This document shows, piece by piece, positions 8,956 through 54,318 of a DNA stretch of 63,436 nt. The stretch comes from Ruminococcus sp. FC2018. GTDB lineage: Bacteria; Bacillota; Clostridia; Oscillospirales; Ruminococcaceae. The stretch is from positions 1 to 63,436 of the forward strand of contig NZ_JHXH01000014.1 of the NCBI RefSeq assembly GCF_000621805.1, in the 5' to 3' direction. Both the position numbers and the translations under genes were made by a program. The notes below the pieces were generated by a model. It saw only the letters and a program-made list of their open reading frames with translations. It did no database searches and was not told the origin of the DNA. Each line of letters begins with the position of its first letter. The stretch's first letter is position 1.

Positions 8956-8992
8956 TTTATTTTCCTTGCTTTCAGATTTTTACAACCTGATA

Positions 8993-9030: not shown

Positions 9031-9055
9031 ATCATCGTACCCTCAAAGACGAAAC

Positions 9056-9235: not shown

Positions 9236-9377
9236 AGTTTTTTCCTCCTGAAAATAATAATTTATGAAAAGCGCAGGGCACAAAGCCCCTTGCCCGTTCA
9301 TCGTGATTCTTCTTCGCTGTCCGCCTTTATCCCTGCTGTGCTGTTCATATAGTTCTCTCTTCCTCATATTTGTTTAC

Positions 9378-10472: not shown

Positions 10473-10504
10473 ACTTTCCTTTGCGTTTTTATCCTATCAG
10501 AAAA

Positions 10505-11845: not shown

Positions 11846-11915
11846 ATCTTTCTTAGATGCCCTTTAACGGGCACATCCTCCTTGATAAAGAATTTTTGTT
11901 TATCCTTGAAACCGC

Positions 11916-12965: not shown

Positions 12966-12980
12966 GCCTTACACCTCTTT

Positions 12981-13337: not shown

Positions 13338-13341
13338 ATCC

Positions 13342-14013
13342 TTACCCTCTTACTGCGTAAAATCCGCACTGCATATATGATGCCCAGAAAAGCTCGCAAG
13401 CCGCAAAGCCCGTATTTTCAAGCATCTGCAAATGCTCTTTTATGTTTATCGGGAAATACTCCGCACCGTACCTCGCAAGGTGCGCATCGACCTCAACAGG
13501 CGTTCTGCCCGCATCAAGCTGATACTCGCCCAGCCGCGCAAGCAAGTTTTCCCTGCCCGTTTCGGTAAGCGGCGCAGTATTCTCAAAGTATACGAAAATA
13601 CCGCCCTTTTTGAGTGCCTTAAAGCAGTTAGTCACCGCCTTTTCGCGCGTTTGTCTGTCAAAATAGTGGTGCGACTGTATCGCCGTCACAGCATCGAACT
13701 CGCCCTCAAACTGCATATCCTGCGAGCCAATGCCGTAGAATTCGCACTCCCTGCCCGCCAGCTTTGCGCGTGCGTCGGTGAGCATATTCTCCGACGGGTC
13801 ACAGAGCGTCAGCCTTGCTATATCAAGCCTGTCCAGTGCTTTTAGCGCGAACGTTCCCGTTCCGCACCCCGTGTCCAGCAGACTTATCTTCCTGTTCTTA
13901 AAATGTGCCCTTATCACCGAAAATACCTGCTCGTGCAACTCGTTGTAAAAGGGTATCACCCTGCGCACGTTCTCGTCATACGCACTTACCTTGAATGGTG
14001 TCGTGTTATCCAC
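13342..14013 (-). CDS. Class I SAM-dependent methyltransferase
   Basis: This 223-residue methyltransferase of the methyltransf_25/11 type has motif I ISLLDTGCGTGTFALKAL, an acidic end of strand 2 (LTLCDPSENML), and motif IV-like VTAIQSHHYFDRQ with GGIFVYFEN following. There is no RNA- or DNA-specific domain, so it is probably a small-molecule methyltransferase. It lies between ruvA and the 118-residue unknown. Confidence 0.85.
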   Translation of the reverse strand: MDNTTPFKVSAYDENVRRVIPFYNELHEQVFSVIRAHFKNRKISLLDTGCGTGTFALKALDRLDIARLTLCDPSENMLTDARAKLAGRECEFYGIGSQDMQFEGEFDAVTAIQSHHYFDRQTREKAVTNCFKALKKGGIFVYFENTAPLTETGRENLLARLGEYQLDAGRTPVEVDAHLARYGAEYFPINIKEHLQMLENTGFAACELFWASYMQCGFYAVRG

Positions 14014-37409: not shown

Positions 37410-38112
37410 CGGCTTTCTTCACTATAAAATAAACAAGTGCTGCGGCTGCAAAGGCTATGAGCGAGCCATAGGCGACATACTGGGTGGTTTTTGCGCCAAG
37501 CTTAAACATTCCACAGACCACTTCCGCCACCACAAAGGCTATTGCACCGAAGGCGGCTATTGTCAGGGAATTTGACAGGACGCCGGCGTTATCGGCAAAA
37601 GCAGGCGAGCCAAGGGCTTTCTGCATTTTACCAAGGCTTCCGTTATCGGCAAGCTTACGCAGGAAGAAGTATGCGATGCTGCCGCCGATAAGTGTTCCTG
37701 CCACGAACGAGGGTATGTAGAACACCCAGCCAAGTCCTTCTCTGCCCCAGATAAAGCGCATTACGGGATAGGAAACCACTGCGCCGACGATACCTGTGCC
37801 GATGACCTCGCCCAGGACGGCAAAGATTATCTTGCCTTTTGAGAGTCTGTAAAAGACTCCTGACAAAAACGCACCGAAGACGGCACCTGTAAGTGCAAGG
37901 GGCGGTATTCCCATAAAAGCCATTCTTATTATTCCGATGAGTGTGGCGCACAAGAGCGAATACCACGGTCCTAAAAGCACCGAGCAGACTATATTTATCA
38001 GATGCGCCATTGGGCACATGCCCTCTACTCTGAGTATAGGTGAGATAACAACGCCTAAAGCTATGAGCATGGAGAGCACGACCATTTTCATAAGATTCTT
38101 CGATCTTTTCAC
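37381..38112 (-). CDS. ECF transporter S component ThiW
   Basis: ThiW is the substrate-binding membrane subunit for a thiazole or thiamine precursor, working with EcfA1A2T (encoded at 6362-8955). I place the start at GTG 38112 (VKRSKNLMKMVVLSMLIAL) because AAGAGGA lies eight bases upstream; the ATG at 38133 has no ribosome site. Five or six hydrophobic helices and SPILRVEGMCPMAHLINIVC, typical of ThiW, are seen. The C-terminal helix pair after residue 180 is longer than in many ThiW proteins. Confidence 0.9.
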   Translation of the reverse strand: MKRSKNLMKMVVLSMLIALGVVISPILRVEGMCPMAHLINIVCSVLLGPWYSLLCATLIGIIRMAFMGIPPLALTGAVFGAFLSGVFYRLSKGKIIFAVLGEVIGTGIVGAVVSYPVMRFIWGREGLGWVFYIPSFVAGTLIGGSIAYFFLRKLADNGSLGKMQKALGSPAFADNAGVLSNSLTIAAFGAIAFVVAEVVCGMFKLGAKTTQYVAYGSLIAFAAAALVYFIVKKAGGKPVGADK

Positions 38113-38272
38113 TTGAATATCCTCTTTTCGCATTTATTTTCGGTCGCAGATCTATTTCTGCCTCTCACCCTGAAACACAGGTTCCCATCGCAAAAATACA
38201 AGACACAAGGAGCTCCCCTTCTATCCGCCCGATCCTTCGGGATAAGCGTTGTCACTTCCTTTCACACATAAT

Positions 38273-38303
38273 AAAAACAGGGCTCCCGAAAAGGCAAGCC
38301 CTG
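38273..38303 (-). terminator. Riboswitch-controlled terminator upstream of thiW
   Basis: Read leftward: CAGGGCT...AGCCCTG with a loop containing TTTTCGG, followed by TTTTTATTATG. It lies directly downstream of the TPP aptamer, so it is the expression platform. Confidence 0.88.
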
Positions 38304-38321
38304 CGCATTGACGAAATATCA

Positions 38322-38410
38322 TCAAGTACCTACGTTGGCATTACCCAAATCAGGTTTACGGTCAAAGGTAACACCTTTTTCTCAGCCTGTCCCCACAAGC
38401 TCCCGTCTGT
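38322..38410 (-). promoter_or_regulatory. TPP riboswitch (THI element)
   Basis: Read leftward it contains GGGAGCTTGTGGGGAC, GCTGAGA, ACCTTTGACC, then CCTGATTTGGGTAATGCCA and ACGTAGGTA. CUGAGA and the CCUGAU...GGGUAAUGCCAGCGUAGG core are the thiamine pyrophosphate aptamer. High TPP would fold the aptamer and allow termination at 38273-38303, shutting off the whole thi operon. Confidence 0.95.
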
Positions 38411-38532
38411 TTCCGAGTTTTATTATACACCTTTACTCATAAAATTGCAAGCATATTCCAAGATTTTTTTGCTGCCCGATAGAAGCAATGCGGCGGCTGC
38501 GGGAAACTCATTGTAAGTTATGCTTTAAATGC

Positions 38533-38568
38533 AAAAAACAGAGCCGGGAGGTTAGTCCCGACTCTGTG
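38533..38568 (-). terminator. Terminator of the giant surface-protein operon
   Basis: Read leftward: CAGAGTCGGGA, loop ctaacc, TCCCGGCTCTG, then TTTTTTGC. Placed 6 bases after the giant-gene stop. Confidence 0.9.
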
Positions 38569-38573
38569 GGTTG

Positions 38574-41500
38574 TTATCTGATCACCCTTGTTTCTACCTT
38601 TGCATTGGTATAGATCAAGTAATCCTGCGCCCAGGATGACTGGATACGGGTGAGTGATGCATTTCCCTTGGCAGGGTTATACATCTGTGCGGTAAGTGTT
38701 ACTTTGTAGTTGGAGTAGGTATCGTTCCACTTACCACTTCCGTCGCCTGTTTTGACCTTATAACGTATAGGAAGCACGTATACTCCGTCGGAAGCCGCAC
38801 CTCTGGTCTTGAGCAGGGACTTATCAACTCTTACGGTATACACAGTACCGCTTTCTCCTCCTGTACTTACAAACTCAACACCTGTTGGCAGTGTAAAGCT
38901 GTCGTCAAGTATCTTATTCTGATCGAAGATCACATCGCCATTATCCGCATAGATCTTCAGATCTGACAGGAAGTCGCTGATCTTCAGAGGTGTACCTTGT
39001 GCTGTGGGACTATTCTCTGACGGGAAGACGTAACTGTTCTTCTTGGAAAGTGTAAGGGTATACTCAATATAGTTGCTTGTTGTTGTCAGCTTATGGGTAT
39101 CATACTCACCGTTGGAGATTATATATCCCTCGCTGTCAGTCTTTGCATTTATACCAAGTGATCTGTACTTTCCGTCCGCTTTGACCTCTGCTGTATCTTC
39201 GGTATTCTCCACCATATTGTAGGAAAGTGTTGCTGCAGCGGTTTTGGCAACATAGTACCTGTTGGCATGTTCCTTCTTCTGCGAGGTTGTGCTGTAATCA
39301 ACGCCTGAGGCAGAAGACGAAATATTAGAGTGACCGATGACCTTTGCTCCTATTTCGGGATCAGGTGAATTAGGATCGTTAGTCGGGAACTGTGCGTTTC
39401 GGCTCAGATCGTCATAGTACGCAAGAGTAAACTCTGCCTTTATGGTCACTGCGTATTGATTGGATGAATCCCACAGATACTCCAGAAGATTCTCGGCACT
39501 GGTCAGCTTGATAAAGCTTGAGGAGCTTGTATCAATGGTAGGTGAAGTCACATTCTGTGCACTGTCAGGGAAGTTGTTAGATGAATATACGCCCGGTGCC
39601 AGTTTGAACTCACTGCTGACTATCTGAGAATTCTTGACTATTCCAACGATCTCGTCTCCCATGTTTGAAAGCTTCTGTCCATACGTCATAAGGAACGCAT
39701 GGTAGATCTGAGTTTTCATTTTTTGCTGAGACATCTGAGTTGCAATAGTATTTCTTTGCGTACTGTCTTTCAGATTGATCGTGGTCAACATGGTGACTTT
39801 AAGTGTATTGTTCGTTGCTGAAATAAGTTTCGTGCTCTGAGGAGTCCAAACTGTCAGTGATGTATCCGACGTTGCGAAGTTATCCTCATAGATATCACCT
39901 ATGATGAGATATGAGTACGACTTTGCATTGATTTTATTAGGCCGCCAGTTTTTATCCTCGATCTGATCATTTCCTGATCCATCCTGTATATGGTCAAACT
40001 GAGCAGGTGAAGTCAGGGAATAATAGTAGAAATTATCCTTCTCATTCTGGGTAAAGAATGTGAGATAGTACCGTTCCGGCTTAACATTTACAGCTGTTAC
40101 TTTATACTTCTTGACATCAGCACCATCGCTTCCGCTGTTAAACGGTCTGTAATACTTTTTACCTGATGCGGTATTGACATAGAAGGTAGCCGCTGAAGCA
40201 TCGGAAGCTTCAACAAGCGTTCCGTCGGTGCTGTCCTCTTGAACTGTTATTTGCATAAGATCGTTAAAGCAAGACGGTTTCCACGCATTATTGCTGCTGT
40301 CCTTGAAATCAACAAGGTTAATGCTTCGACTGGAAGCTGTTTCAGATGCAGGGGCAACAGGGGCGTCAAGATAATAGCTCTTTCCGTCCTTGGTGGAATC
40401 AACCAGTACCATCTTGGTAACATCAGGCCAGAATTTATCGCTGGTATGTTTCTTTTCTATGGTGATAGTTTTTCTGAAGTTACCGTCAACAATAACGTTT
40501 TCACCGCTGTTAAGTGCTTCGATCCACTCATTATCAGCCTTGCCCTCATCAGTACGGAAATACTGATATTCAAAGGCATAGGTTACAGGGTTTCCAAGGT
40601 TCTCAAACAGGAACTTTGATTCAAAGTTATTGTTGGTATCGTTGTCATATGCATCCTTATAGTAGTTGGTATTGGAAGCAAGGGTAGCATAGAAGTTATA
40701 TCTCAGGATCTTTCTTGTATACACAGGTACATACAGATGATATGCGACCTTTGCGGCGGTGATATTAGCAGTCGAACCGGTGCCGGTCACGGTTGACGGA
40801 TCGTAGAACTGAACGTCAACGAGGGTAAACTGCTGGGTAACTCCTGTATCAACATACTGCGGCAGCATACAGAACTTACTGTTTGCACCGACGCCTTCAA
40901 TACGCAGGTTAGCAAGATCCTTTTCATCTGTACCGGTCTGATCATTAAATCTCTTTTCACCTGAATCATAGACCATTTTACGAAGCTGAACGTTATATAC
41001 CTGCTTATTGGTTGTACTGTCTGCAAAGTTATACGATGTATTGGTAAGTGTACGCAGATAACCATTGATAAGATCGGTAACGTTGCTGCTGTTGGAGTCA
41101 TCCACAACGATCAGCGGGAATTCAGCTATATTACTGTCTTTTGTAAGGAATTCCATGTTCGACGTCGAATAGTGATCCTTTATATAATTCATGGTCACAT
41201 TATCAATAGCAGGTACATTGCTGTATGCTTTTCTTACATTTCCTGCTATATCGGTCCGGATCTTTTTGAACATAGAATTATCGTATGTGTAAGACGAGCC
41301 AGACTTACTTATTCCGTCACTTGTAAGGATATTGGAGCTGTCGATCTTTAAGGACGGGCTGGAGGTAACAAACGGATAGTTTTCGTTCTTATAATTGTAT
41401 GTTACTCCACCGGTCGTTTCGTCATATCCGGCAGCTGTATACGCAGCAGCCTGATCCTTATTATTATCGTAGGCAGTATAAGTTGTTCCATTTTGTGTCC

Positions 41501-44500
41501 ATGTCTTGATACTGCGCATGGTCTCAACGTTATTGGTTTCGCTGAGATCGGTGTTATTGACATTTGAGAACCAGGGATACTGTGTGCTTGTTTTGCTGGC
41601 GTTATCGTTATAGTCTGCAAAGATAACGTAGCCGTTGGTGCCGTATGGAGTAGAGGCATCCGGGCAAGAACCCACAAGGTCTGATATCATCTTGTTGTTT
41701 CCACCGGTTCTGTCGTCCTGACGTGAGAAGCCTGCGAGCTTGATGACACAATAAGTGTCAGTATTAGCAACAGTATTACACCTTCTCCAGCCACAGATAT
41801 AGCCCTGATTTGTTCCTGTGAATGTCAGATTTTTAGCGAGGATATTGTATCCGTGGAGATACTTTTGCTTACTACCCGAAGTATACTGTATTCCGGCAAG
41901 ACCACCTGCATAGCTCAATGCTCCATCAGTATTATTTGTAGCCTTGATACTACAATCAGATATTTTAAAGTTCTCAATATCAAATCTATTATCCTTATCT
42001 GTACCGTTAGATGAAGGGTGTTGCCCGTAGACACCAACAACACCGCCGGCAATCTCATTTGCCTCAATAGTGTATCTTTCAATATTGCTGTTCTGTATCA
42101 GAACATTACTCATTTCATGTTTTACAGCACCTATAAATCCACCTGCTGCTACATAATAAGCTTGTTTTGATGGGTTGTTTTCCTGATAACTTGTATATCC
42201 GTTACACTTGACGATTGCTTTGGCATTGCTGTTGCTGTAAACCTCTGTGTTAGTAATGATCGACTGATTACATACTGTTTTTAATATCGGGTGAATATCA
42301 GTTTTATCAGATGTTGATGCGATATAACCAAGCAGTCCACCTGCTATATATGGACTGGTCACTGACTGATTATACACCTTGCAGTTGTCAAGGAACAAAG
42401 TAGCCTTATTCTGCATTCCTATAAGTCCGCCCGCCATTATGCCACCGATACTATTTTCATTGCATTTTACCGTTGTAGCCTCAACTGCATTCTTATCACC
42501 TACAATGACATTTCTGATTCTTACATAACTTGTTTTATTATTACCAGCATCTAAAACGGTTGAGGTTCTACAGAAACCAATAAATCCACCAACGCCGTAG
42601 TTATAATCGTATCCGGATCGATAATCACAATCACTGACAACTTCAGTAATGCTGTAAGTAGCATTATTGTTGTCAATGTCGATCATTCCATTGTAGCTCT
42701 TGCCTATCATTCCGCCTGCCGAGCCGCCACTGTGAATCTTGATCTCTTTAGAAGGTAAGCTTAAAGAATTTTTATAAGTAGTTTTATAAAAAGTGTTCTT
42801 GGTTCCAGCAACACATCCGATAAGTCCACCAGCATTTCTTACACCCTTGACATTAATGTTTTTTACTGCAACACTATCAAGATACTGCTCGGCATTAGAT
42901 GTGCCCATCAGCATTCCTGCACTTACCATTTGTACTCTGTCAATACCACTTCCACCGCTTGGATCTGGAGAACTAATATCACACAGATACGGTATATGAT
43001 CACCTGATTTATTATCTATGCAATCGCAAATAACGTTGCCGGTAAGAGTAAAGTTATAGTACTTTTTACTCTCACTATTTGTTGATCCCTTTTGATTATT
43101 GAACAGACCAAAACCGATATCACCTATATGAGGATATCCTGAATCAAACTCACTGTTCTGATAATCAGCAACAGTTGTGTTCGCTTTTGAAATTGGATTT
43201 GTATTTTTCTTGGAGTAGTAGTAATAATAGCTCGAATTCTGGGATATGGTCGCACCGTTGCCGTTGAAATTGGTAACAGACATTTTGGCATTATCATTGG
43301 TACTATAATACATATTACCTATACCCTTGTAACCATCTGGCAGGTAATATGTGCTGTTTTCATCAGTCAACGTGATAGTACCTGATATCTTATCTTTTTT
43401 ATTGACATTTGTCGTATAGAATTTTGCAAGATAACCGGCTTGTTCAGAATAAGTTGTTTTATTTAACCAGTCATTTTTAGCATAATTCTTATAATCGTCA
43501 ACACTTGTATTAACGGCAGTGAGATTTGTTGCTACATCAGTATAATCAGCCCAGCGAGTGACCTGATATGACTGTTTATAACCAATTATATTGCTTCTCA
43601 TTCCGCTGTTTACAATTAAGGACATAACGAAGAAAGCCTGACCGTTTGGCACGCCAATATTATTATCCTTATTACCATAGTAAGTATCAAGCTGAGTTAA
43701 ACCTTTACTGATATCTGTTATTGAATAATGCTTTGTGCCGTTTTTCAGCGTTACGCCTATCTTGTTTGCTTTTGTACCGTTATAGGACGAGGTGATCTTG
43801 CCATCAGTGCCCTTAGTCTCGGTATAATAAACCTTTGTACCGTCGCCGTACTCTCTTACGCCATCCTCAAAAGGTCTGTAAGCGCCGGATTCGGTAACTG
43901 CATATCCGTTTATAACACGGCCGATTATCGGGTTCACGTAAAGCCACGCAAGATTGTCGCTTGATGTTGAGGGAGAACCTGCATTAGCGGGAGCAGCATT
44001 TGATGCTGTCAACTTTGAATCGCTGAGTGCACGGGTAGTTCCATTATAGTCTCCGGCGGTTTCGTCCATGTTACGGAAAATCACTCCGCCATTTACTATT
44101 ACTCCAACATATCCGCCAACAGGAGCAAGCTGCGGTGTTCCGGTCAGGCTGATCGTCTTTTCAAACGACGAATAATCAACAAGACAGTTGTCTATGATAT
44201 TGTCTCCGCCGTGAACTTTACCAATAAGCGCTCCATATGCGTTTGTACCATTGTTGTTATCCATTATTTTGAACGCAGAGGATGTTCCAATTACGGGTAT
44301 ATCTTTTTCAGATGCTACTTTAATGCTGATGTTTTTCAGCACACAGCCATTGGCATTGGCAATAAGCGGGTACACAGTCTTATTGACTATAGTTTTACCG
44401 TTACCCACGATAACGCCTCTGAAAGGAACATAATTATTCTTATCAGAAGTTGCGTAGCCTATTCCTTTGAAATTACTTCCTTTTATCTCGATCTCGTTTT

Positions 44501-47500
44501 CATCACCGGAGAGGATATAATACGCACCGGCAAGGTATTTCTCCATATATTCTTTGGAAATAAATGTACCGGATTTACCGCCACCACTGGGATTTTGTGT
44601 AGGTGTTCCGGAATAATAACCTGACTGACAAGTTATGGTTCCTCCATTACCGTCATCAATAGTCGGATTATCATAATATTTTAAAGTTACATGACCATAT
44701 GAAGAATTATGCCATGTTGCTGCAGAACTCGTAAGATCAACAGCCTTTCCATTCTTATCTGCGGGTACACTAATCTCGGTCAACGTATGGTTTTCCAAAA
44801 AGATCTGCGAAAGAGCGACAAAGTTTTCGTCCTTTTCCAGAGTATACGGATCATTGTAAGTTCCGCAGCCGCTGAAGCCCTCAGAACTCTGGTTGACCAT
44901 TATCTGGTGAGTCTTGTTCGCCTCGTTGTATTCCGTATATACGTAGGGAAGGAAATCCTCACGGAAGTGCTGTGCATACTCACCGGTAACATCCCACAGA
45001 GAAACAGGATTAACAAAGCATTTATCTGTTTCACCTTCTTGAGGCTCACCATAATAGTAACGCTCCTTACCGGGATACTCAGTAGATGTATCTGAAACGG
45101 TATAGCCAAGTTCTTTTCCATATGTCACTTGATGTGGTGCATCTACATTGCTATCAGGGTCAAAATCTTTCCAGTCTTCATCCCATGTAAAGTTATATTT
45201 ACCGAAAGAACCCGGTTCGTATCTGAACTTTTCCAAAAAAGTTGCATGTGTAAAAATCGAACGCTCCGTACCATATTTTATGTTTAGCTTATTATCATAA
45301 GCGTAAGAATCTTCCGAATCTAGTACAGTAAGGTTCTTATTCCTTCCGTCAAGGATCATCTTTGTAAACTCAATTGAAACACCAGTGGCACCGTTAGTAC
45401 TACTGCCATCTACATTACCTATTAAACTGGTACCTGCCTTCGGGCAATCTACACCATTTTCTGTATCTGTAAGCAAACCAGGATATGTGGAAAGCGAATC
45501 CATCATTTTTCTGTAGCTTGTCTCAACTTTTGTTCTTGAGTTATAATCACGCTTTGAATACGCGCTTATAGTAAGCTGAGTATAATCGCCCACTTTATTT
45601 ATCAAAAGCGGAGCATACTCATCTTCGTCACCGGTCATATCATGGACATAAACCCTGTCAAGCCGTATAGAACCGGTGACATTTATCACTGCCTTATGGT
45701 TAGCCGAACCCTGTACCTTGCCGCAGATAAGCGCACCTGAACCATAAGCTGTTTTACCAACGTTGCCCTGAAGCTTAACTTCACCTACGCTTAGCTTAGC
45801 ATCAGAATTAACATTACGGAACAGGCCGTTTTGCAGCAGATAATGCTGTGTCTTATCAAGAGATGTTCGTTGAAATTCAGTAGGATCATTTGCGTCTGGA
45901 TTGATAACAATTTTAGGTTCACAAAGCTCAAACTCCTTATTATAAAGCTTGAACGTGCCGTTCACGGTAACGCTGCTGTCCACATCGACCGGATACCAGC
46001 TGTAGCCCTGCATATCATAAGTGCCATCCGCTATACTATTACCCATTGTATCATTGAAATACTCACTTATTGACTCATGGGCATAGTGACCCAGACCCCA
46101 GCGCATAAGCTTTGGAGCATCTTTACCATTATCTTTACTGCTGTCTCTTACAACGTCAAGATTGTAGTAGTATCTTGTATAGGGATTTGCGGTATTGCCC
46201 TCAGCTGTCTGAGCGGTATAAGAATTGCTGGGAGTATTGCCGCTTTTGTCCATATAAAGCCCATTTGGTGCAGCTGTCTTTATAGATATGACCGCTGCTT
46301 TGTTCTGAAGGACATAGAAGTTTTCGGTATCTCCTGCGGGAGCATAAAGCCTTGTGCCACTTCCGTTATCGTTATAGTAAGCACTATACGCAACTATTTC
46401 ATCAAATACGCTAAAGCCGGAAATTCCGGTAACGCCTGTTTTTGTTATCTTATACGCATCCTTGTTCTGCAATTCAAGATAAAGTGCGGAGCTTGTGCTA
46501 CCTTTATAATCATTATTGTTGGTGGTATACCAGGCTTTGTTTACAAGAAGACCAAGTGATTTTTTCCCGCCGGAAGAGATCCGGAGATCTTTGAGCTGAA
46601 TATCGTTTGCGTCCTTTACAGTCCAATAACCTGTGCCGCAGTATACCAGTCCGCCGATATCGCCATAATTCGATTCAACGTTTCCAAGAGTTATCGTGTT
46701 GTGGGTAGTCACAGCCGAGTTGCCTTCGCCCTCGACCTTTTCCTGTGCAACAACATTATCAAAGTCAACATTTACATTTCGCCATTCATAACCCAGAAAG
46801 CCGCCGATAGCCCTTGTACTCTTAGAGGTATCTCCGCTTCCGGTTTTGGAAGCCGACAGGGAAAGACCGCTTACAGTTATGTTTTTCAGCTTAATGGAAC
46901 GGTTAGACTTAGTGGTATTTGCATTATGGGAAACAACTGCCACAATGCCGCCCATACGGTTATAAGCAACACCCCATGTATTTGAAATGCTGCCTGAAAC
47001 ATTGACATTGGTGAACTTCCACTCATTACTGTTATTACTTGTCTCATTGATACGTCCGACAACGCCGCCAAGATAAAGATCGGTGGTATTGGAAGCTGTG
47101 CCGGAAATATTCGCAGTAACATTAACGGTATTTATATCTATGCTGCTAATAGTATTTGTTGCCTCACCGAGAACACCGCCAAGGGTAAGCTTCGCTCCGC
47201 CTGCATGACTGAAGGCGGTGGTAACATTCATATTGTTTGCGTTAAAGGCTCCGCTTGCTTCGGCTGCTGCTGCACCTGCAAGCATTGTATCCTCTTTGGC
47301 ATTAAGATAAACGTTTCCGGCAAGGTTGACATTTGTGATCGTAAAAGCACTGACAGAACCAAACAGACCCACATAGTTGTGGCGGTACTGTTTACCCAGA
47401 CCTTCTTTGGAATGTGAGGTGATGGGTATGGTACCGTCTTTGCCGTAAGGCTCACCGATAGCAAGGGTGATAGTTTTACCGTCTGAAGATGACAATGTAC

Positions 47501-49739
47501 CTGTATAGGTATGCTTAACATCTTCGCTGCCAATATCATTATCTCTTGTTAATCCGGTAATTCCCGTTCCGGAAAGATCTATATCTGCGGTCAAAGTTAT
47601 AGAAGCTTCGTTGATCGTATCCCATTTATAATTTGTGTTTGCAAAGCTTACATACTCATTATTTGAAGCATCGATCTGGAAGCAGAGCGCTGTCTTGGCA
47701 AAATCCGCCACCGATCCGATGGTTGTATATGCACTTGAAGGAGAAGCTATCTGGACGGTATGGTCAGTTTCGTTTACATTGAACAGTTGGTTTTCGGCTG
47801 TGAGAGATGAACCGTCAAAGCGTATCACCTGACCCCATGAGCCGATGTCATCAACTGCTGCGCCGCTCATATTTCTCTTTAGTGTCCAACCCGGCTTTGC
47901 ATAAATCAGGGCATCGTCACGGTATCCCACAATTATGCCGACTTTGTTTGTTTCATCTATGTTAGTAGTGTCATTCTTATCAGGTTCAGCTGACTTTGCA
48001 CCGCTAAGGTCTATGGTGCCGTCCATTCTCAGGACGCCGTAGGCAAGACTGCCCACCAGTCCGCCGCCTTTATAATTTTCGCTGGTTTTTATTGTAACAT
48101 TCTTGGCATCAATGAACGCCTTGTCGCCATTGCCAACCAATCCGCCGAATGTCAAGGTCGAAGCGTTGGCAGCCGAGCCAAGTGTAAAGCCGTTGAACTT
48201 TACATATGATGTTCCATCTGTCTGGTTAGCAGTAACGGTACCATCTATCACGCCTATGCCGCCGCCGTAAACCTTCGCCTTGGATGCTCCGTCGGCAGAC
48301 ACGCTCTTTCCTGTTGTTCCATTAACAGTAAGCGAATGGCTCTTGGAGTCGACCCTATACAAACCGATCAGTCCGCCATATGCATTGCAGGTATCGGTGC
48401 CTGCACGCTTTGATTCAATATCACCATCAACACTTATCGTAACATTCTTATCGCTTTCCAGCACACCGATAAGACCGCCGCTTCCTCCCGTTCCCTGGAG
48501 TGAGCAGCCGTCTATTTTACAAACATTCGTTTCTATTGTAACATCACTGCTTGGCTTATAATAACCAAAGAGTCCGCCTTCACCCTTAACACCGATTATG
48601 GTCTGGTTCACGGTATGATTTTCGGAAATAACTACATTTCCGCCGACGCTGTATCCGGCAATACCGCCTGCGAAGCCTTTACTGCTGTCTTTTGTTTCGA
48701 TTTTTGTATTTTCATCGAAAGGAGATGAAGAGCAGGTATACTCGAATGTGGAGTTGGCTTCCATTTTTCCTACAAAACCGCCGGCATTTCCATTTTCGGT
48801 TGTGATCTCGGCAATTTTCCTATTAGAGGTAAAATCAAGAGTAAGTGATGTTCCTGTTTCCATTGTTCCGCAGGCAAATCCGATATTGTCATCACCCTGT
48901 ATGGAAACATTCTCAGTATCGCCCTCGCCCGTATTCATAGTTACGCTAAGCTCAAGTTTAGCGGCACCGCTGTGGATAGTATCATTTCCGGACTCGGAAT
49001 AGGTATAGTTGTTCCACATTTTGCCGATAAGTCCGCCAAAATTCCTTAGTGTAGCCGAGGGAGAATCTTCGATCTTAGGCGTACAGATATTTATATCCCA
49101 TTTGTTTACAACAGCTTCTTCACCGCTATCAGGATCAGGGTCACTACCGCTGTCGTGGATAACGTTGTTAGCAAGCAGAGGCTTCAGGCTATTACGTCCC
49201 TGTGCATAGTATCTTGAGATATCCAGCGGATAATGATCTACCTCTGCATTATCAGACGAACGTAAAACTTGTGCGGAATCATACACATAGTCAAACAAAG
49301 GCTGTTCAAGGTTAAGGACGATTCCGCTAAGTCCGTCTACAGTCACAGATCCTTTGAACGGATACTTTTCAGTACCAAGAGGCATGAAGTCTATCAACAG
49401 AACATTCGATGTTACATTGCCCGCTTCAAGGTTAATACGGATCTTATCGTTCTGGTGGGCTCTGTGATATTCATTCGCTCTTTTAGAATAATCTACAAAG
49501 TTGTTCGGTGTCAGTTCCACATATCCGGTATGTGGGTCCGGCAAAAACTTAATATCATCAGCAGATTCATCATGACCCGCTGCAGACGCATTGATACTGT
49601 AAAAATCGAGCTCACCCAACTTCTCGCTGATCTCAAGCATCGGAAGTGCACCAAAGAACATAACGGCAGCAACTACTCCGCTTATAACACGTTTGTAAGC
49701 TTTGGTTTTCTTTATTCTTTTCAGAAGCTTTTTATTCAT
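38574..49739 (-). CDS. Giant secreted beta-helix-like surface protein (~3,721 residues)
   Basis: I place the start at ATG 49739; the GGGAG site is too near the ATG at 49748. N-terminal KKLLKRIKKTKAYKR then a hydrophobic signal (about 17-50) ending around INASAAGHDESAD. Many short GLUG-like units occur (GGLIGKM, GGFVGKM, GGIAGYS, GGLFGYY, GGVLGE, GGMIGKS, GGLLGYI) in clusters near residues 240-620, 830-1130 and 1840-2640, as in right-handed beta-helix adhesins. The C-terminal about 1,000 residues lack them. No LPXTG, SLH or dockerin motif is visible at the C-terminus (ends NAKVETRVIR), so anchoring is unexplained. The three upstream membrane proteins are in the same operon. The frame is uninterrupted over 11 kb. 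Confidence 0.85.
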   Translation of the reverse strand: MNKKLLKRIKKTKAYKRVISGVVAAVMFFGALPMLEISEKLGELDFYSINASAAGHDESADDIKFLPDPHTGYVELTPNNFVDYSKRANEYHRAHQNDKIRINLEAGNVTSNVLLIDFMPLGTEKYPFKGSVTVDGLSGIVLNLEQPLFDYVYDSAQVLRSSDNAEVDHYPLDISRYYAQGRNSLKPLLANNVIHDSGSDPDPDSGEEAVVNKWDINICTPKIEDSPSATLRNFGGLIGKMWNNYTYSESGNDTIHSGAAKLELSVTMNTGEGDTENVSIQGDDNIGFACGTMETGTSLTLDFTSNRKIAEITTENGNAGGFVGKMEANSTFEYTCSSSPFDENTKIETKDSSKGFAGGIAGYSVGGNVVISENHTVNQTIIGVKGEGGLFGYYKPSSDVTIETNVCKIDGCSLQGTGGSGGLIGVLESDKNVTISVDGDIESKRAGTDTCNAYGGLIGLYRVDSKSHSLTVNGTTGKSVSADGASKAKVYGGGIGVIDGTVTANQTDGTSYVKFNGFTLGSAANASTLTFGGLVGNGDKAFIDAKNVTIKTSENYKGGGLVGSLAYGVLRMDGTIDLSGAKSAEPDKNDTTNIDETNKVGIIVGYRDDALIYAKPGWTLKRNMSGAAVDDIGSWGQVIRFDGSSLTAENQLFNVNETDHTVQIASPSSAYTTIGSVADFAKTALCFQIDASNNEYVSFANTNYKWDTINEASITLTADIDLSGTGITGLTRDNDIGSEDVKHTYTGTLSSSDGKTITLAIGEPYGKDGTIPITSHSKEGLGKQYRHNYVGLFGSVSAFTITNVNLAGNVYLNAKEDTMLAGAAAAEASGAFNANNMNVTTAFSHAGGAKLTLGGVLGEATNTISSIDINTVNVTANISGTASNTTDLYLGGVVGRINETSNNSNEWKFTNVNVSGSISNTWGVAYNRMGGIVAVVSHNANTTKSNRSIKLKNITVSGLSLSASKTGSGDTSKSTRAIGGFLGYEWRNVNVDFDNVVAQEKVEGEGNSAVTTHNTITLGNVESNYGDIGGLVYCGTGYWTVKDANDIQLKDLRISSGGKKSLGLLVNKAWYTTNNNDYKGSTSSALYLELQNKDAYKITKTGVTGISGFSVFDEIVAYSAYYNDNGSGTRLYAPAGDTENFYVLQNKAAVISIKTAAPNGLYMDKSGNTPSNSYTAQTAEGNTANPYTRYYYNLDVVRDSSKDNGKDAPKLMRWGLGHYAHESISEYFNDTMGNSIADGTYDMQGYSWYPVDVDSSVTVNGTFKLYNKEFELCEPKIVINPDANDPTEFQRTSLDKTQHYLLQNGLFRNVNSDAKLSVGEVKLQGNVGKTAYGSGALICGKVQGSANHKAVINVTGSIRLDRVYVHDMTGDEDEYAPLLINKVGDYTQLTISAYSKRDYNSRTKVETSYRKMMDSLSTYPGLLTDTENGVDCPKAGTSLIGNVDGSSTNGATGVSIEFTKMILDGRNKNLTVLDSEDSYAYDNKLNIKYGTERSIFTHATFLEKFRYEPGSFGKYNFTWDEDWKDFDPDSNVDAPHQVTYGKELGYTVSDTSTEYPGKERYYYGEPQEGETDKCFVNPVSLWDVTGEYAQHFREDFLPYVYTEYNEANKTHQIMVNQSSEGFSGCGTYNDPYTLEKDENFVALSQIFLENHTLTEISVPADKNGKAVDLTSSAATWHNSSYGHVTLKYYDNPTIDDGNGGTITCQSGYYSGTPTQNPSGGGKSGTFISKEYMEKYLAGAYYILSGDENEIEIKGSNFKGIGYATSDKNNYVPFRGVIVGNGKTIVNKTVYPLIANANGCVLKNISIKVASEKDIPVIGTSSAFKIMDNNNGTNAYGALIGKVHGGDNIIDNCLVDYSSFEKTISLTGTPQLAPVGGYVGVIVNGGVIFRNMDETAGDYNGTTRALSDSKLTASNAAPANAGSPSTSSDNLAWLYVNPIIGRVINGYAVTESGAYRPFEDGVREYGDGTKVYYTETKGTDGKITSSYNGTKANKIGVTLKNGTKHYSITDISKGLTQLDTYYGNKDNNIGVPNGQAFFVMSLIVNSGMRSNIIGYKQSYQVTRWADYTDVATNLTAVNTSVDDYKNYAKNDWLNKTTYSEQAGYLAKFYTTNVNKKDKISGTITLTDENSTYYLPDGYKGIGNMYYSTNDNAKMSVTNFNGNGATISQNSSYYYYYSKKNTNPISKANTTVADYQNSEFDSGYPHIGDIGFGLFNNQKGSTNSESKKYYNFTLTGNVICDCIDNKSGDHIPYLCDISSPDPSGGSGIDRVQMVSAGMLMGTSNAEQYLDSVAVKNINVKGVRNAGGLIGCVAGTKNTFYKTTYKNSLSLPSKEIKIHSGGSAGGMIGKSYNGMIDIDNNNATYSITEVVSDCDYRSGYDYNYGVGGFIGFCRTSTVLDAGNNKTSYVRIRNVIVGDKNAVEATTVKCNENSIGGIMAGGLIGMQNKATLFLDNCKVYNQSVTSPYIAGGLLGYIASTSDKTDIHPILKTVCNQSIITNTEVYSNSNAKAIVKCNGYTSYQENNPSKQAYYVAAGGFIGAVKHEMSNVLIQNSNIERYTIEANEIAGGVVGVYGQHPSSNGTDKDNRFDIENFKISDCSIKATNNTDGALSYAGGLAGIQYTSGSKQKYLHGYNILAKNLTFTGTNQGYICGWRRCNTVANTDTYCVIKLAGFSRQDDRTGGNNKMISDLVGSCPDASTPYGTNGYVIFADYNDNASKTSTQYPWFSNVNNTDLSETNNVETMRSIKTWTQNGTTYTAYDNNKDQAAAYTAAGYDETTGGVTYNYKNENYPFVTSSPSLKIDSSNILTSDGISKSGSSYTYDNSMFKKIRTDIAGNVRKAYSNVPAIDNVTMNYIKDHYSTSNMEFLTKDSNIAEFPLIVVDDSNSSNVTDLINGYLRTLTNTSYNFADSTTNKQVYNVQLRKMVYDSGEKRFNDQTGTDEKDLANLRIEGVGANSKFCMLPQYVDTGVTQQFTLVDVQFYDPSTVTGTGSTANITAAKVAYHLYVPVYTRKILRYNFYATLASNTNYYKDAYDNDTNNNFESKFLFENLGNPVTYAFEYQYFRTDEGKADNEWIEALNSGENVIVDGNFRKTITIEKKHTSDKFWPDVTKMVLVDSTKDGKSYYLDAPVAPASETASSRSINLVDFKDSSNNAWKPSCFNDLMQITVQEDSTDGTLVEASDASAATFYVNTASGKKYYRPFNSGSDGADVKKYKVTAVNVKPERYYLTFFTQNEKDNFYYYSLTSPAQFDHIQDGSGNDQIEDKNWRPNKINAKSYSYLIIGDIYEDNFATSDTSLTVWTPQSTKLISATNNTLKVTMLTTINLKDSTQRNTIATQMSQQKMKTQIYHAFLMTYGQKLSNMGDEIVGIVKNSQIVSSEFKLAPGVYSSNNFPDSAQNVTSPTIDTSSSSFIKLTSAENLLEYLWDSSNQYAVTIKAEFTLAYYDDLSRNAQFPTNDPNSPDPEIGAKVIGHSNISSSASGVDYSTTSQKKEHANRYYVAKTAAATLSYNMVENTEDTAEVKADGKYRSLGINAKTDSEGYIISNGEYDTHKLTTTSNYIEYTLTLSKKNSYVFPSENSPTAQGTPLKISDFLSDLKIYADNGDVIFDQNKILDDSFTLPTGVEFVSTGGESGTVYTVRVDKSLLKTRGAASDGVYVLPIRYKVKTGDGSGKWNDTYSNYKVTLTAQMYNPAKGNASLTRIQSSWAQDYLIYTNAKVETRVIR

Positions 49740-49841
49740 ATGCATCATACTCCCAAAATGTCAGATGACTGTTAAAGCCATCGCTTACGCTTTCCCTTTC
49801 ATTTCAATAATTCAAATTCCATATATACTATTCTTATAGTA

Positions 49842-50870
49842 TTATCCTTCATTAGTTATATTGTTGATCTCATATGTCACCCAGGTATTATCCAACGCCT
49901 CACTACGCTGTTTAAAGAAGTCGTAATTATCCGGCCTTCCCTGTTTAAGATAAAGCTGGATATTATATCGGTTTCTTTCACCAGCATCGGCGCTTATGGT
50001 CATTTTCTTCCAGCCGGCTTTCAGATCATCGTCTACAGGGGTTCCGACTTCGGGATAGTCTATTACAGGGTTTTCCTTAAAATACTTATTCATATCAATT
50101 TTTTCAGGATCCCATCTTATGGTGACCTCTGCCTTTCCGGAACCTGTAACAACCAGATTATAGCCGTCTGCTTCGCCTCTGTCTATACTTGCTCTTATTT
50201 CGCTTACATAGGCATCCCAGCCGCCGCCTGCAGAACCGGTTTCGGTTTTAAGTCCGATTATTCCTCCGATATCCCTCAGATCGCTGTATTTTCCTGAGGT
50301 TTTCTTAGGCTTTGCTATCAGCTGGAGACATATACCGCTGTCGGTATCCGGATTCCATCCATTATAGGTAAGGGTATACTTATTATCAGCATCGGTTTTA
50401 ACATAGGTATAGTCAAAGCTTCCGCTGAGATTTGAATTATTTACCTCAATTGTTGTATTGTCAGGTTTTGTTATAACGATCGTTCTTGTTCCCATATCCG
50501 AAATAGCTGCGCCGGAGGGATCGGTGACCTTATATTCCATCGTATACTCTATATCCTCAGGGTAGGTCTGCGCTGAGTTACGTGTGCTGAAATTCCAGAT
50601 ATACACGTTTACATCGGCGGAAAAATCCGTATCCGGCACATCGGGCTTAGTCACATACTTTGCCTGATATACATTATTTCCGCCCTCAGTCAGATAGTTT
50701 GACGAGAACATCATTCCCTGATCGGAAGCAGACACTACGACCCGCTTCATATAATTGTTGTTAAAAGCGTACTCAGCATATGCTACATATGACAGTAATC
50801 CCACAGATACAGCAAGTATCCACGCAAGGAGCCACTGCTTCTTTATGAACTTAAATATTTTCTTTTTCAT
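49842..50870 (-). CDS. Single-pass exported protein C of the giant-protein operon
   Basis: This 342-residue protein has a short basic N-terminus (MKKKIFKFIKKQW), a membrane segment about 14-34, and an extracytoplasmic domain with many beta-strand-like stretches (YTLTYNGWNPDTDSG, AEVTIRWDPEKIDM). The region after the helix (YAEYAFNNNYMKRVVVSASD) echoes the post-helix regions of proteins A and B. It ends with WVTYEINNITNEG. Ribosome site AAAGGAG. I do not recognise a family; a TasA/CalY-like sandwich is possible but not shown. It lies 102 bases before the giant gene. Confidence 0.75.
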   Translation of the reverse strand: MKKKIFKFIKKQWLLAWILAVSVGLLSYVAYAEYAFNNNYMKRVVVSASDQGMMFSSNYLTEGGNNVYQAKYVTKPDVPDTDFSADVNVYIWNFSTRNSAQTYPEDIEYTMEYKVTDPSGAAISDMGTRTIVITKPDNTTIEVNNSNLSGSFDYTYVKTDADNKYTLTYNGWNPDTDSGICLQLIAKPKKTSGKYSDLRDIGGIIGLKTETGSAGGGWDAYVSEIRASIDRGEADGYNLVVTGSGKAEVTIRWDPEKIDMNKYFKENPVIDYPEVGTPVDDDLKAGWKKMTISADAGERNRYNIQLYLKQGRPDNYDFFKQRSEALDNTWVTYEINNITNEG

Positions 50871-50910
50871 ACGCCGCAGCTCCTTTCATTCAGATTTCCG
50901 AAATCTAAGA

Positions 50911-51936
50911 TCAGCCGTTTCCTCTGTCAACAGAGAGATAAACCATATCAGTTTCCTTATTGATAATACTTGCCTGCTGATCCGTATTCCATGTTACTTC
51001 CAGAATATAATACTTACAGAAAGTTCTGTTGTTTTCATCGATCTCGTCGCTCCTCAGATTCACGTTCTTCTGCCAGTAGATCGGAACGGCGTTCTTATGA
51101 ACGTCGGTATATTCAGCATAAGTCTCGGTATAATACTTTTCTTTGGATTCATCGTTCAGGGTCTTTCCCAGGACCTCAGAGTAGCTTGCACCTTCCATGG
51201 CGACTTCCTTTTTGTTTTTAGCTTCCATTTCAATGTCGCTGCCCTTAACATAATACAATGTTGAAGGAAGGGTCGGGTCATTATACTCGTCGCCGGATAC
51301 TACCAGTTTATTCTCGGTATGGCTATTTGCGTTAAGGTTATATTTAACTATATCCTCATCATTGGCACCGGAAGGAACCGCCGCTGCTTCGTCAACTCCG
51401 GTGGTGCCTTTGTTATATCTGTACTGGGTCGCATCATACACCTTATAGGTAAACTGGTTATTGGTCGTATGGGCAAGCTGGAGTGTAAAGCTTCTGGTGC
51501 CTGATCCGGAGACAGAAAAAACGTATTGTTTTTTATCTATCTTCTTGGTATAGCTCAATTCAGGCTCTGTAACATACTTAGGCGAACCGTCTTCGTTGGT
51601 AATTATCTGATCCTGGTCGTCACGGTGGTAGTTAGGTTGATTTGTACTTTTGCTGTAATAAATATCGTTGCCGAACTCATCGGTAACATTGGCATTGACA
51701 TTTATAGCGCCAAGGTCAAAGAACACTCTGTCCTCTCGATGGGCGGCATTTACATAAAGCGCATTCGGATACTCGATCTTGAACATCTCTGCTGCCTTTT
51801 TCTGCTCATTGAACCACGCAAAGGACGGTATAGAGATCATAAGACAGAAGGTAAGCGTCATGGCAGTTACCAGCTGCATTTTTTTCCTTGCAGGCAGATC
51901 ATCAAATCTGCGGAAAATCTTTTTTATTCTGTTCAC
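50911..51936 (-). CDS. Single-pass exported protein B of the giant-protein operon
   Basis: This 341-residue protein starts at GTG (51936) with AAAGGAGGG upstream. The N-terminus is basic, then a helix about residues 21-41 ending SIPSFAWFNEQKKAAEMFKI, then a beta-rich outer domain. Like protein A it has an FAWF/IAWF boundary and near the C-terminus CKYYILEVTW, matching A's CVNYFMIEVSV. This suggests A and B are paralogous. The boundary recalls SipW-processed TasA/CalY matrix proteins, but no SipW-type peptidase gene is present. Confidence 0.75.
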   Translation of the reverse strand: MNRIKKIFRRFDDLPARKKMQLVTAMTLTFCLMISIPSFAWFNEQKKAAEMFKIEYPNALYVNAAHREDRVFFDLGAINVNANVTDEFGNDIYYSKSTNQPNYHRDDQDQIITNEDGSPKYVTEPELSYTKKIDKKQYVFSVSGSGTRSFTLQLAHTTNNQFTYKVYDATQYRYNKGTTGVDEAAAVPSGANDEDIVKYNLNANSHTENKLVVSGDEYNDPTLPSTLYYVKGSDIEMEAKNKKEVAMEGASYSEVLGKTLNDESKEKYYTETYAEYTDVHKNAVPIYWQKNVNLRSDEIDENNRTFCKYYILEVTWNTDQQASIINKETDMVYLSVDRGNG

Positions 51937-51976
51937 TGCATTCGCCCTCCTTTCCGTTAAGCTCCTGGATCGGACA

Positions 51977-53182
51977 TCACTTTTTCTCCACAGATACCTC
52001 GATCATAAAGTAATTCACGCAGGTACCGATATCAAAGTCTGCATAGTTATAGCCGTCGCTGAGTTTCCTGAAATTATCGCCGTCGGTAGGATTATCAATC
52101 ATTTCGTTATCTACAGTAATTGTGCTGCCTGCCTCGGTATATGGCTTAAATATATTTTGTTTATTATCTTTAAGATACTTTACAACTGTATCATGGTCGG
52201 CGCTGCCGTCTTCAACCACCGGATAGCCTTTTCGCTTGTCGTCTGCGTTGTTCGGAAGTGCCATCTGTCCGAGGGTATTGGTCCACATCCAACGAACGGG
52301 TACTTTATATGCTGTGTTTTCCGCTGCGTTTTCCTTTCCGAATTCCAGTGTCCAGCTCATATCCGCAGTGTTAAAGGCTGCCGGTGTCTTATAATAATAC
52401 CTGTTTTCTTCGGGGGTACCGGACGAAGTATCTCCTTCATCTTTAAAGAACAGGATATGTCCGCAGAGGTATTTTTCAGCCTGCTTATACACGTTAAGGT
52501 CCTTGCCTTCAAGCTGTGACCCTCTTACTTTTTCGGTTGTTAATTCCGAGGTCTTTTTAAGCTCTGTTACATACAGCTTGTTGCCCTGGGCATCTGTCTT
52601 CTGCTCTCCGGTTTCCTCGTCCACAACCGGGAATTCGAGTGCCGTAAAGCCTGTGACCTTGACATTTATCCTTGCGTTCAGTGTACCGGCTTTCTTAGCT
52701 ATCATATAAAGATCAAGCTCACCGTATCCGCCGGGAAGGATATCCTTGTCCCCTTCGCCCTTTGAATTTGCATCACAGCGCAGTATCAGCTTTGATGTGG
52801 TGGGGATATAGTAGTCACTCTCGCCGCCGTCTTCGTTATTATAGGTATGTTTAGTTCCTTCATTATACTCGCTGTCAACTTCCAAAAGGCGGTCCTTATA
52901 GCTGACCTTCTCTTTTTTGGTGGCAATATCAAAGGAGCTTCCGTTTGCCTCGATCGCCATTGTGTCGGCGGTCACGGCTTTATTCATGGCAAACCATGCT
53001 ATCGAGGCGAATATCATTATGAGTGCAATAAGTATCATCATCAGCACAAGCTTTATTGCACGCTTTTTCTGCTTACGGCGTTCTTCCTCGCTTTCGGCTT
53101 TCTTTTCTGCGACGACCTGTTCGGCTATTTTCTCCGCTGCTTCCCACATTTTATTGTTTTCACTCACCGTTCTTTCGCTCAT
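51977..53182 (-). CDS. Single-pass exported protein A of the giant-protein operon
   Basis: Predicted length is 401 residues from ATG 53182 (GAGGTGA eight bases upstream; an earlier GTG at 53191 lies inside that site). A cytoplasmic charged segment of about 45 residues (KKAESEEERRKQKKRAIK) leads into a hydrophobic helix ending FASIAWFAMNKAVTADTMAI, then a beta-rich extracytoplasmic domain. The C-terminal GTCVNYFMIEVSVEKK parallels protein B. First gene of the operon. The long charged cytoplasmic tail could dock on an assembly machine. Function is unknown. Confidence 0.75.
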   Translation of the reverse strand: MSERTVSENNKMWEAAEKIAEQVVAEKKAESEEERRKQKKRAIKLVLMMILIALIMIFASIAWFAMNKAVTADTMAIEANGSSFDIATKKEKVSYKDRLLEVDSEYNEGTKHTYNNEDGGESDYYIPTTSKLILRCDANSKGEGDKDILPGGYGELDLYMIAKKAGTLNARINVKVTGFTALEFPVVDEETGEQKTDAQGNKLYVTELKKTSELTTEKVRGSQLEGKDLNVYKQAEKYLCGHILFFKDEGDTSSGTPEENRYYYKTPAAFNTADMSWTLEFGKENAAENTAYKVPVRWMWTNTLGQMALPNNADDKRKGYPVVEDGSADHDTVVKYLKDNKQNIFKPYTEAGSTITVDNEMIDNPTDGDNFRKLSDGYNYADFDIGTCVNYFMIEVSVEKK

Positions 53183-53278
53183 TACACTCACCTCGCTCTC
53201 TTCGTTTTTTGTTTAAATAATTGGACTTTTTTGTCAAGAGGGTGCACTTCCCCCTTGTGGGCATATTTTCTCTCTTAT

Positions 53279-53307
53279 ATTATACAATAAAAGTCCTCGT
53301 TTTGCAA
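53279..53307 (-). promoter_or_regulatory. Predicted promoter of the giant-protein operon
   Basis: Read leftward: TTGCAA, 17-base spacer, TATAAT, about 95 bases before the first start codon. A possible GC-rich hairpin (AAGGGGG with CCCTCTT) lies in the leader near 53232-53256. Confidence 0.6.
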
Positions 53308-53469
53308 TAAGCATATTTGACAAAAATGCACAAAGATGATTGTGCGCTTTATAGATTTCTTTCACACTTTTAACATACAACTTACTAAAACTTTCCACTT
53401 TAGCTTATAATATCAGTTCAGAATTTCGCTATGTGACTTACACACTTATCAAAAATAGTGAAAACAGGC

Positions 53470-53504
53470 AAAAAGAGCGGGAGCCAAGAAAAACTTAGCT
53501 CCCA
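53470..53504 (-). terminator. Terminator after metI
   Basis: Read leftward: GGGAGCTAAG, TTTTT loop, CTTGGCTCCC, then GCTCTTTTTG. The remaining gene-free bases to the divergent-side promoter hold nothing recognised. Confidence 0.8.
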
Positions 53505-53613
53505 CAAGCTGTCAAATATAGATCAGAACCGGAAAGATCTTTTCCCAAGTGCAGTCGGAATAACCGTTCTCAAAAAAGACACCCGGATAACCTGCCAACG
53601 AACAATGATTATG

Positions 53614-54318
53614 TCAGCCTTTCAGACGTTTATCTGTTTTTTTGGCAAGTTTTGTACCAACAGACTGGAAAAGCTGGACTATCAGGATCAACAGCACCAC
53701 CGCAAAGATCATCACGATATACTTATAGCGATAATAGCCGTAATTGATAGCAATTTTTCCAAGACCGCCGCCGCCGATAATACCGCTCATTGCGGAATAT
53801 CCAAGCACGGTAGTAACGGCGATAGTTGCATTTGATATAAGTGAGGGGACACTTTCGGGAATAAGCACCTTTGTGATTATCTTAAAAGGCGATGCACCCA
53901 TACTCTGCGCCATTTCGATAGTGTTCTGGCTGACCTCACGCAGACTGCTCTCGGCCAGGCGTGCTACGAAGGGGAATGCTGCGATCACCAGGGGGACAAT
54001 AGATGGCGTTGTGCCCACGACCGTGCCGATCAAGGCTCTTGTAAGCGGAAAAACAAGTATCATCAGGATCAGAAACGGCACTGAGCGCAAAAGATTTATC
54101 AGTGCGTTAAGGAGCTTTAAAATAAAGCCGGGTATGGGTCTGACGCCGCCCTTTTCGCCTACCACCAGCAGGACTCCCAGCGGAAGTCCGATGAGGATCG
54201 CAAAGAACGTTGAGACTACGGTCACATATACCGTTTCCCATACAGCGAGGGGAAACTGGGTCTTAAATATTTCCCAAGCCTCTTTGAACTCCGGCGAGGA
54301 AAAGAAGTCACTTATCAT
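53614..54318 (-). CDS. Methionine ABC transporter permease MetI
   Basis: This 234-residue permease of the MetNIQ D-/L-methionine importer has five to six hydrophobic helices, GVLLVVGEKGG, LNALINLLRSVPFLILMI, and the coupling loop AQSMGASPFKIITKVLIPES, all typical. The start overlaps the metN 3' end by 11 bases. Confidence 0.95.
   Translation of the reverse strand: MISDFFSSPEFKEAWEIFKTQFPLAVWETVYVTVVSTFFAILIGLPLGVLLVVGEKGGVRPIPGFILKLLNALINLLRSVPFLILMILVFPLTRALIGTVVGTTPSIVPLVIAAFPFVARLAESSLREVSQNTIEMAQSMGASPFKIITKVLIPESVPSLISNATIAVTTVLGYSAMSGIIGGGGLGKIAINYGYYRYKYIVMIFAVVLLILIVQLFQSVGTKLAKKTDKRLKG

Follow-up and report, generated by a model that had tools for sequence, protein, structure and literature searches.

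The 63,436 nucleotides from Ruminococcus sp. FC2018 analysed here (contig NZ_JHXH01000014.1; the window, from now on) contain four tightly packed leftward open reading frames (ORFs), A, B, C and D, of 401, 341, 342 and 3724 amino acids, separated by gaps of 40, 40 and 93 bp. The original prediction, made from the letters of this stretch, had read them as one leftward unit with one promoter and one terminator, encoding three small anchored proteins and a giant one that form a dedicated surface-fibre or matrix system. The ORFs and a motif scan bear out this four-gene layout, with one promoter-like and one terminator-like site:

52951..53375, minus strand: launcher module, delimited by DNA identity; promoter, 5′ leader and the first 63-66 codons of A (cytoplasmic tail plus transmembrane helix), to about 45 nt past the W codon
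53279..53307, minus strand: promoter-like site, TTGCAA-17-TATAAT, inside a block conserved among relatives
53234..53256, minus strand: small leader hairpin, AAGGGGG...CCCTCTT, found in 12 of 12 aligned launchers
51977..53182, minus strand: gene A, 401 amino acids from the ATG at 53182 (MSERT, a start common to relatives)
52996-52994, minus strand: W codon of gene A; numbered from an alternative GTG start, the helix spans 48-66 and cleavage is predicted between A65 and W66
50911..51936, minus strand: gene B, 341 amino acids; helix 22-40, predicted cleavage between A40 and W41, conserved KETDxIY near the end
49842..50870, minus strand: gene C, 342 amino acids; helix 14-32, predicted cleavage between A32 and E33
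38574..49748, minus strand: gene D, giant, 3724 amino acids; signal-like helix at 22-40, clustered GG-x-x-G units and a tail conserved near YTNAK
38538..38567, minus strand: terminator-like hairpin (12 pairs) followed by a T run, from the motif scan

The GTG just mentioned lies at 53191 and would make A 404 amino acids long (51977-53191). When the window is scanned beside shuffled sequence, promoter-like and terminator-like sites occur near the shuffle level (44 against 37.9 and 14 against 13.7, respectively), so they carry weight only because the promoter sits in the conserved block, where CTTTTATTGTATAATATAAG is common to the 12 aligned launchers. An Rfam search of the A leader gave no match.

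A search of the genome collection with a profile of B matched 178 stretches, 119 of which encode a relative, and the counts of loci given here cover the best 80 of these, from Ruminococcus flavefaciens, R. albus and R. bicirculans, Eubacterium ruminantium, E. xylanophilum and E. uniforme, some Lachnospiraceae and many metagenome bins. By the order of matches to hidden Markov models, A lies upstream of B on the same strand in 78 of the 79 loci with room for it; C comes after B in 78 of 80, the remaining two ending too soon, and D comes after C in 71 of the 72 with room, the exception being R. bicirculans (L039 and L132; loci are numbered L, genomes G and contigs C), where the order is A-D-B-C and D is broken into frames of 2804 and 439 residues. 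Among 29 genomes of the genus, not counting weak partial matches (G001 for B, 8e-4; G025 for D, 6e-5), B is strong in 19 and so is the D tail, both being present in 18, B only in one, the D tail only in one and neither in nine. The genome with B and no D tail (G011) has both its B copies within 2.4 kb of a contig end, and in the one with the D tail and no B (G009) two contigs end inside the A launcher. In a sample of 245 genomes from the class, B matched in six, at full length in two. The A-B-C-D unit is real and common within this group, and it is not general. The four-gene order that the original prediction proposed to look for elsewhere is kept across Ruminococcus and some Lachnospiraceae, and, instead of occurring mostly without the giant protein, a pattern named beforehand as telling against the proposal, the partners keep it: 18 of the 20 genomes with B or the D tail have both.

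Each of A, B and C has one hydrophobic helix, ending in AWF in A and B and at AEY in C. In the alignment columns, alanine is the last residue before the boundary (-1) in 48/72 A, 73/80 B, 69/74 C and 30/31 sequences of E, a protein of a second locus described below (the 31st has a gap there); the other -1 residues are S or G, except for two T. The -3 residue is S, T, V or A in 69/72 A, 78/80 B, 67/74 C and 29/30 E. Standing directly before an aromatic boundary, these -3 and -1 residues of A, B and C fit signal peptidase I sites. Otherwise the three proteins diverge fast (19-50% identity of relatives to the window copies), with fixed positions at the W before F after the helix (A and B), at W-x-W and D-x-x-x-G in A, at KETD in B and at G-x-G in C. 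The features that A and B were said to share are present, both the AWF boundary and the C-terminal strings (NYFMIEV in A, KYYILEV in B), but profile similarity between the two is confined to 34 helix columns (84%), and hhalign found no A-B or A-C relation outside the helix. In L058 (16324-17355), L061 (7166-8185), L107 (7829-8860) and L037 (4593-5531), A is directly preceded by a further A-like membrane protein that lacks the AWF boundary.

The giant protein D had been described as full of GLUG-like units. With the pattern then used plus I, i.e., GG-[LFMVI]-[IVLA]-G, the D of the window has 18 units, well above the 1000 shuffles (mean 0.17, maximum 2), but they are clustered at 238-562, 857-982 and 2307-2615, so that ‘full of’ is too strong; similar clusters occur in relatives, whose units fall mainly in three regions (about 220-580, 770-1030 and 2080-2780), with few near 1670-1820. 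The Pfam family Glug (PF07581) had no match in the genome search, in the window D or in two other D proteins. D could be aligned end to end in 15 proteins from 14 genomes, and in the tail near YTNAK the T-N is invariant in 16 aligned ends. Read by eye, 15 complete D proteins have no sortase-type hydrophobic tail within their final 40 residues, and of LPXTG-type motifs an NPVTG, 59 residues short of the C-terminus, is seen in L037 alone. Orphan D-tail pieces lie near some operons, as if they were remnants of earlier cargoes (L060 16516-17511, L023 17351-18154 and G021:C1:120719-120877). In one genome, G022, E-A'-A-B-C plus the start of D is apparently duplicated on two contigs (L061 on C5 and L062 on C2, with equal scores), and the frame holding the D tail has 3754 codons on C2 and 939 on C5.

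The absence of a signal peptidase and a sortase, also part of the original prediction, holds for the tested genes of the window as far as the peptidase goes, but not for the genome (G000), which has two sortase matches and, on contig C1 instead of the operon contig, two SipW-like peptidases (TIGR02228 over cut-off). The latter sit in a locus of eight genes, E, F, G, H, I, J, H' and K, whose families were assigned on the copies of L061, where J and H' form one protein:

E: AWF protein
F: EAL-domain protein (2.9e-31 on the L061 copy)
G and K: one-helix proteins
H and H': SipW-like peptidases
I: membrane McrB-like AAA protein with Walker-type motifs
J: DUF2357 protein (PF09823 at 1e-7, over cut-off, on the L061 copy)

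In L061, H and the end of J match the SipW model NF046067 below its cut-off (2.4e-31 and 9.7e-28) and TIGR02228 above it, and J matches SEC11C at 3.4e-5. All 22 of 22 I proteins carry GISGTGKT, LLDEMN and NNDD, the last compatible with both NxD and NxxD; the McrB model matches I below its cut-off (0.0017), and a profile of I had no match in the PDB at 0.01. I has a strong helix at 62-80 and a weak one at 8-26, with a coiled coil after the helix and another in J, both read by eye. Unlike the fast-diverging A, B and C, I is 72-94% identical to the copy of this genome across 21 others. The likeness between A and E takes in the helix and the first section of the mature protein (60 columns of a profile comparison, 97.8%), and genes of E-K adjoin A-B-C-D in 13 of the 80 loci, L121 and L127 having the order E-F-G-H-I-J-H'-K-A-B-C-D. 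Given the -3/-1 residues before the boundary and a SipW-like peptidase locus in the same genome, cleavage of A, B and C is likelier than anchoring, and the three are probably cleaved subunits rather than membrane anchors. An EAL-domain gene (of the cyclic di-GMP phosphodiesterase type; L061 10481-11239) recurs in this export locus and suggests control by cyclic di-GMP.

The E-K locus resembles the CoCoPALM systems, in which an McrB-like protein carries a fused membrane and coiled-coil part and comes with an McrC-like partner and with signal peptidases thought to be active in pilus assembly, a clade that the accessible text names while deferring its study (PMC11090510). Apart from versions of this work, papers listed under the name use its letters, by title, in another sense. 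E-K has a DUF2357 protein as McrC homologue and associated proteins of the signal peptidase family, and its AAA protein I, a putative counterpart of the McrB-like protein, carries NNDD and a membrane helix followed by what looks like a coiled coil; A-B-C-D, the EAL protein and the mosaic of the launcher, however, are absent from the accessible text of that paper (PMC11090510). A second likeness is to sipW-bsaABCRSD of Clostridium perfringens, with its SipW-dependent BsaA filaments and its bsaB and bsaC mutants that have less BsaA polymer: it too combines several secreted proteins with a SipW-like peptidase, but its accessible text mentions neither a giant protein nor an AAA/DUF2357 pair, and the likeness to A, B and C is by description only (PMC7395162). 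The TasA/camelysin family (PF12389) has 0 matches in this genome, none in A-D of the window and none in 72 A proteins, and it matches four of the 29 genomes of the genus (over cut-off in two) at places other than the B matches. TasA goes with a SipW-type peptidase and has a helix followed by an aromatic boundary. The likeness to Bacillus TasA/TapA-SipW and to camelysin lies in these same features, as this genome has a SipW-type peptidase and candidate substrates with small residues at -3 and -1 before such a boundary. The initial statement that this is not a TasA operon holds for the sequence family but misleads as to the logic, since a SipW-like export locus goes along with it.

Comparison of its relatives shows gene A to be a mosaic: what precedes AWF does not share the history of mature A, B and C. 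The relative nearest by B is within the top five by C at 66 of 71 loci and by mature A at 63, but by the A launcher (the part before AWF) at 11, where about 5 are expected by chance. Control pieces of similar length keep it at 50 of the 71 loci for the opening 55 positions of mature A, at 55 for its closing 55, at 50 for the beginning of C and at 37 for that of B. Likewise, the rank correlation of pair identities is 0.03-0.09 between the launcher and mature A, B and C, as opposed to 0.39 between mature A and B and 0.43 between mature A and C, with a small residual link of the launcher (Mantel rho 0.07, p 0.017). At the DNA level, the window is 73-88% identical to L024, L027 and L029 between -250 and +45 relative to the W codon, with hardly any alignment beyond; for L024 the identity is 77-88% from -450 to -100, 79% up to W and 73% in the next 45 bases. 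L031 and L131 show the reverse: from +45 on they are 79-86% identical without gaps, with three aligned positions over the 100 bases that precede the W codon. The 14 pairs so compared were chosen for contrast, are not independent and describe more than they test, but the change in similarity falls at one place. An exchange of launcher and cargo by past recombination is supported by these comparisons.

The interpretation we hold to be reasonably probable is that, in Ruminococcus and related Clostridia, A-B-C-D encodes the cargo of a SipW-dependent system that makes surface fibres or matrix, and that a CoCoPALM-like machine serves it. A, B and C would be made as precursors with one N-terminal helix and exported by Sec, and a dedicated SipW-like peptidase would cut them between a small residue and an aromatic one (A/WF in A and B, A/xY in C). 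The mature proteins may then act as extracellular subunits, perhaps minor or linking ones, as BsaB and BsaC do for BsaA, and D may be the large outer component, whose N-terminus is signal-like, whose body may in part resemble a beta-solenoid and whose tail is conserved near YTNAK. Cutting and assembly would be served by the E-K locus on the other contig. The dedicated surface-fibre or matrix system of the original prediction is supported by the kept gene order and the co-occurrence, whilst its small anchored proteins are probably wrong.

Some observations weigh against this interpretation. Of the 48 loci where 9.3 kb or more is available upstream of B, 11 have I or J, and neither is seen in the other 37 nor in this window. 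Within the genus, I is present in 18 of the 19 genomes with B (the exception being 70% complete) and in seven of the ten without it, so that the association of B and I over the 29 genomes is weak (18/1/7/3, Fisher p 0.10). The helix of E is below the hydropathy threshold used, and no curated family of Pfam or NCBIfam covers A-D of the window. Across the 245 genomes of the class sample, I is matched in 20 (in 13 of them below 1e-90), including both with full-length B. As I is present in so many genomes of the genus and the class without B, E-K looks like a wider machine, joined by A-B-C-D in part of the genomes. In favour of the interpretation, seven of the 18 genomes of the genus with both B and the D tail carry I and B no more than 30 kb apart.

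The model from which we started, in which A, B and C are uncut membrane anchors that help to export or tether D and E-K is unrelated, is in keeping with the single hydrophobic helix of each protein, with the approximately 47 residues that precede it in A and with the 37 loci where I and J are out of reach. We nevertheless consider it unlikely, as an anchor does not need a small -1 residue and mostly S, T, V or A at -3 before an aromatic one, as 11 of the 80 loci have E-K immediately upstream and in the same orientation, and as launcher and mature A were exchanged at about the predicted cleavage boundary. Somewhat less likely again is that the AAA/DUF2357 part is an McrBC-like anti-phage defence next to the operon by accident, with a general signal peptidase I cutting A, B and C. 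The PADLOC candidate PDC-M26A does match two tested I proteins (2.8e-39 and 8.7e-39, the latter being that of G000:C1, L053 10444-12018), and DUF2357 itself is found in J. On the other hand, neither of the two tested J proteins matches PADLOC, and the J of L061 carries a SipW-like peptidase at its end and showed no nuclease domain. An AWF protein also belongs to the locus, and this cluster is the neighbour of A-B-C-D in those 13 loci. The PDC-M26A candidate may itself include surface-assembly loci. That D is a polymorphic toxin or contact-dependent effector with A, B and C as delivery parts is very improbable, for although D is giant and exported, its partners diverge fast and orphan D-tail pieces occur (in G027, G012 and G021), its tail is conserved instead of being a variable toxin domain, and no same-strand ORF of at least 80 amino acids lies between D and the next gene in the window.

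Returning to the cargo operon, the seam in gene A raises the question of switching. The launcher (query 52990-53375, three weak short matches excluded) is found at 12 strong places in nine of the 29 genomes of the genus, one of them in this genome; eight lead into an operon, three end with the contig (G009 twice and G010) and the last, in G006, is an orphan that loses its similarity immediately before AWF. Copies that are orphan or at contig ends are seen at L025 (11322-11714, diverging just before AWF) and at the ends of L158, L159 and L160. Conversely, four of the 80 loci (L077, L103, L112 and L133) have A-B-C-D with fewer than 25 residues of open frame before the boundary; L133 begins 76 bases from a contig end, and the assemblies of L103 and L112 each hold a further operon (L082 and L145). 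Cassettes of E without a signal stand beside two large serine recombinases (PF00239, PF07508 and PF13408) in two genomes (L153 and L154), and orphan E signal pieces stopping just before AWF occur in L153 and L061. The E-cassette sites are at L153 (G024:C3) 4853-13937, L154 (G022:C2) 5121-12535 and L155 4164-5288. L153, which also has an E with its signal and orphan signal pieces nearby, looks like a cassette-switching locus; a 52-bp inverted repeat there (87%) was set aside as proof of inversion, as it may be plain paralogy. Many of the compared genomes are metagenome bins, where misassembly is possible, and the genome of the window has one launcher, one B and one full E, so that its seam is shown by comparison only, not by a switch. 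The S-layer genes of Campylobacter fetus are promoter-switched, with one expression site that has a conserved 5′ part and alternative genes downstream, an arrangement similar to the one described here. The seam here, however, is the boundary of a signal peptide, is known by comparison, and the exchanged part would be a 14-kb operon of four genes. We advance only tentatively, as somewhat short of probable, that A-B-C-D is a swappable 14-kb cassette, in which the launcher would stand at an expression site and mature A-B-C-D cargoes would be exchanged behind it at the AWF codons by site-specific or homologous recombination.

Searches for known folds and earlier descriptions led no further. The sole match below 0.001 among A-D of the window, of B to PF01716 (0.00032), is under the cut-off; weak matches of A to FliL (0.021) and of E to a PI3K regulatory subunit (0.08) were dismissed, and Ig-like families matched by single A proteins (CARDB in 2 of 72, best 0.00065; chagasin and Big_11 in one each) give a faint hint of a beta-sandwich that was not counted. 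Pfam searches of two other D and 72 A proteins, NCBIfam searches of 31 E proteins, and profile searches of the PDB with A, B, C, E and I, and with D alone, opened no route to a known fold. No description of A-B-C-D was found in open-access text (titles, starts of abstracts and passages, without supplements). Upstream of the operon lie genes matching a methionine-type transporter and then a terminator-like hairpin, and downstream lie genes matching ThiW and ThiM; the G+C content is 39-44% over the operon (38000-54000) as opposed to 46-52% in most of the remaining window.

Ruminococcus species play an important role in fibre degradation in the rumen and gut, and little is known of how their surface is built. 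A conserved operon with a giant exported protein, tied in part of the genomes to McrBC-like, CoCoPALM-type machinery, provides that machinery with a concrete candidate cargo, by which it becomes testable. If the exchange of cargoes is true, it would amount to cell-surface variation at the scale of an operon in rumen and gut bacteria, and, if the seam serves for switching, these commensals could replace an entire surface apparatus in one go, with a bearing on phage attack, host immunity and attachment to fibre.

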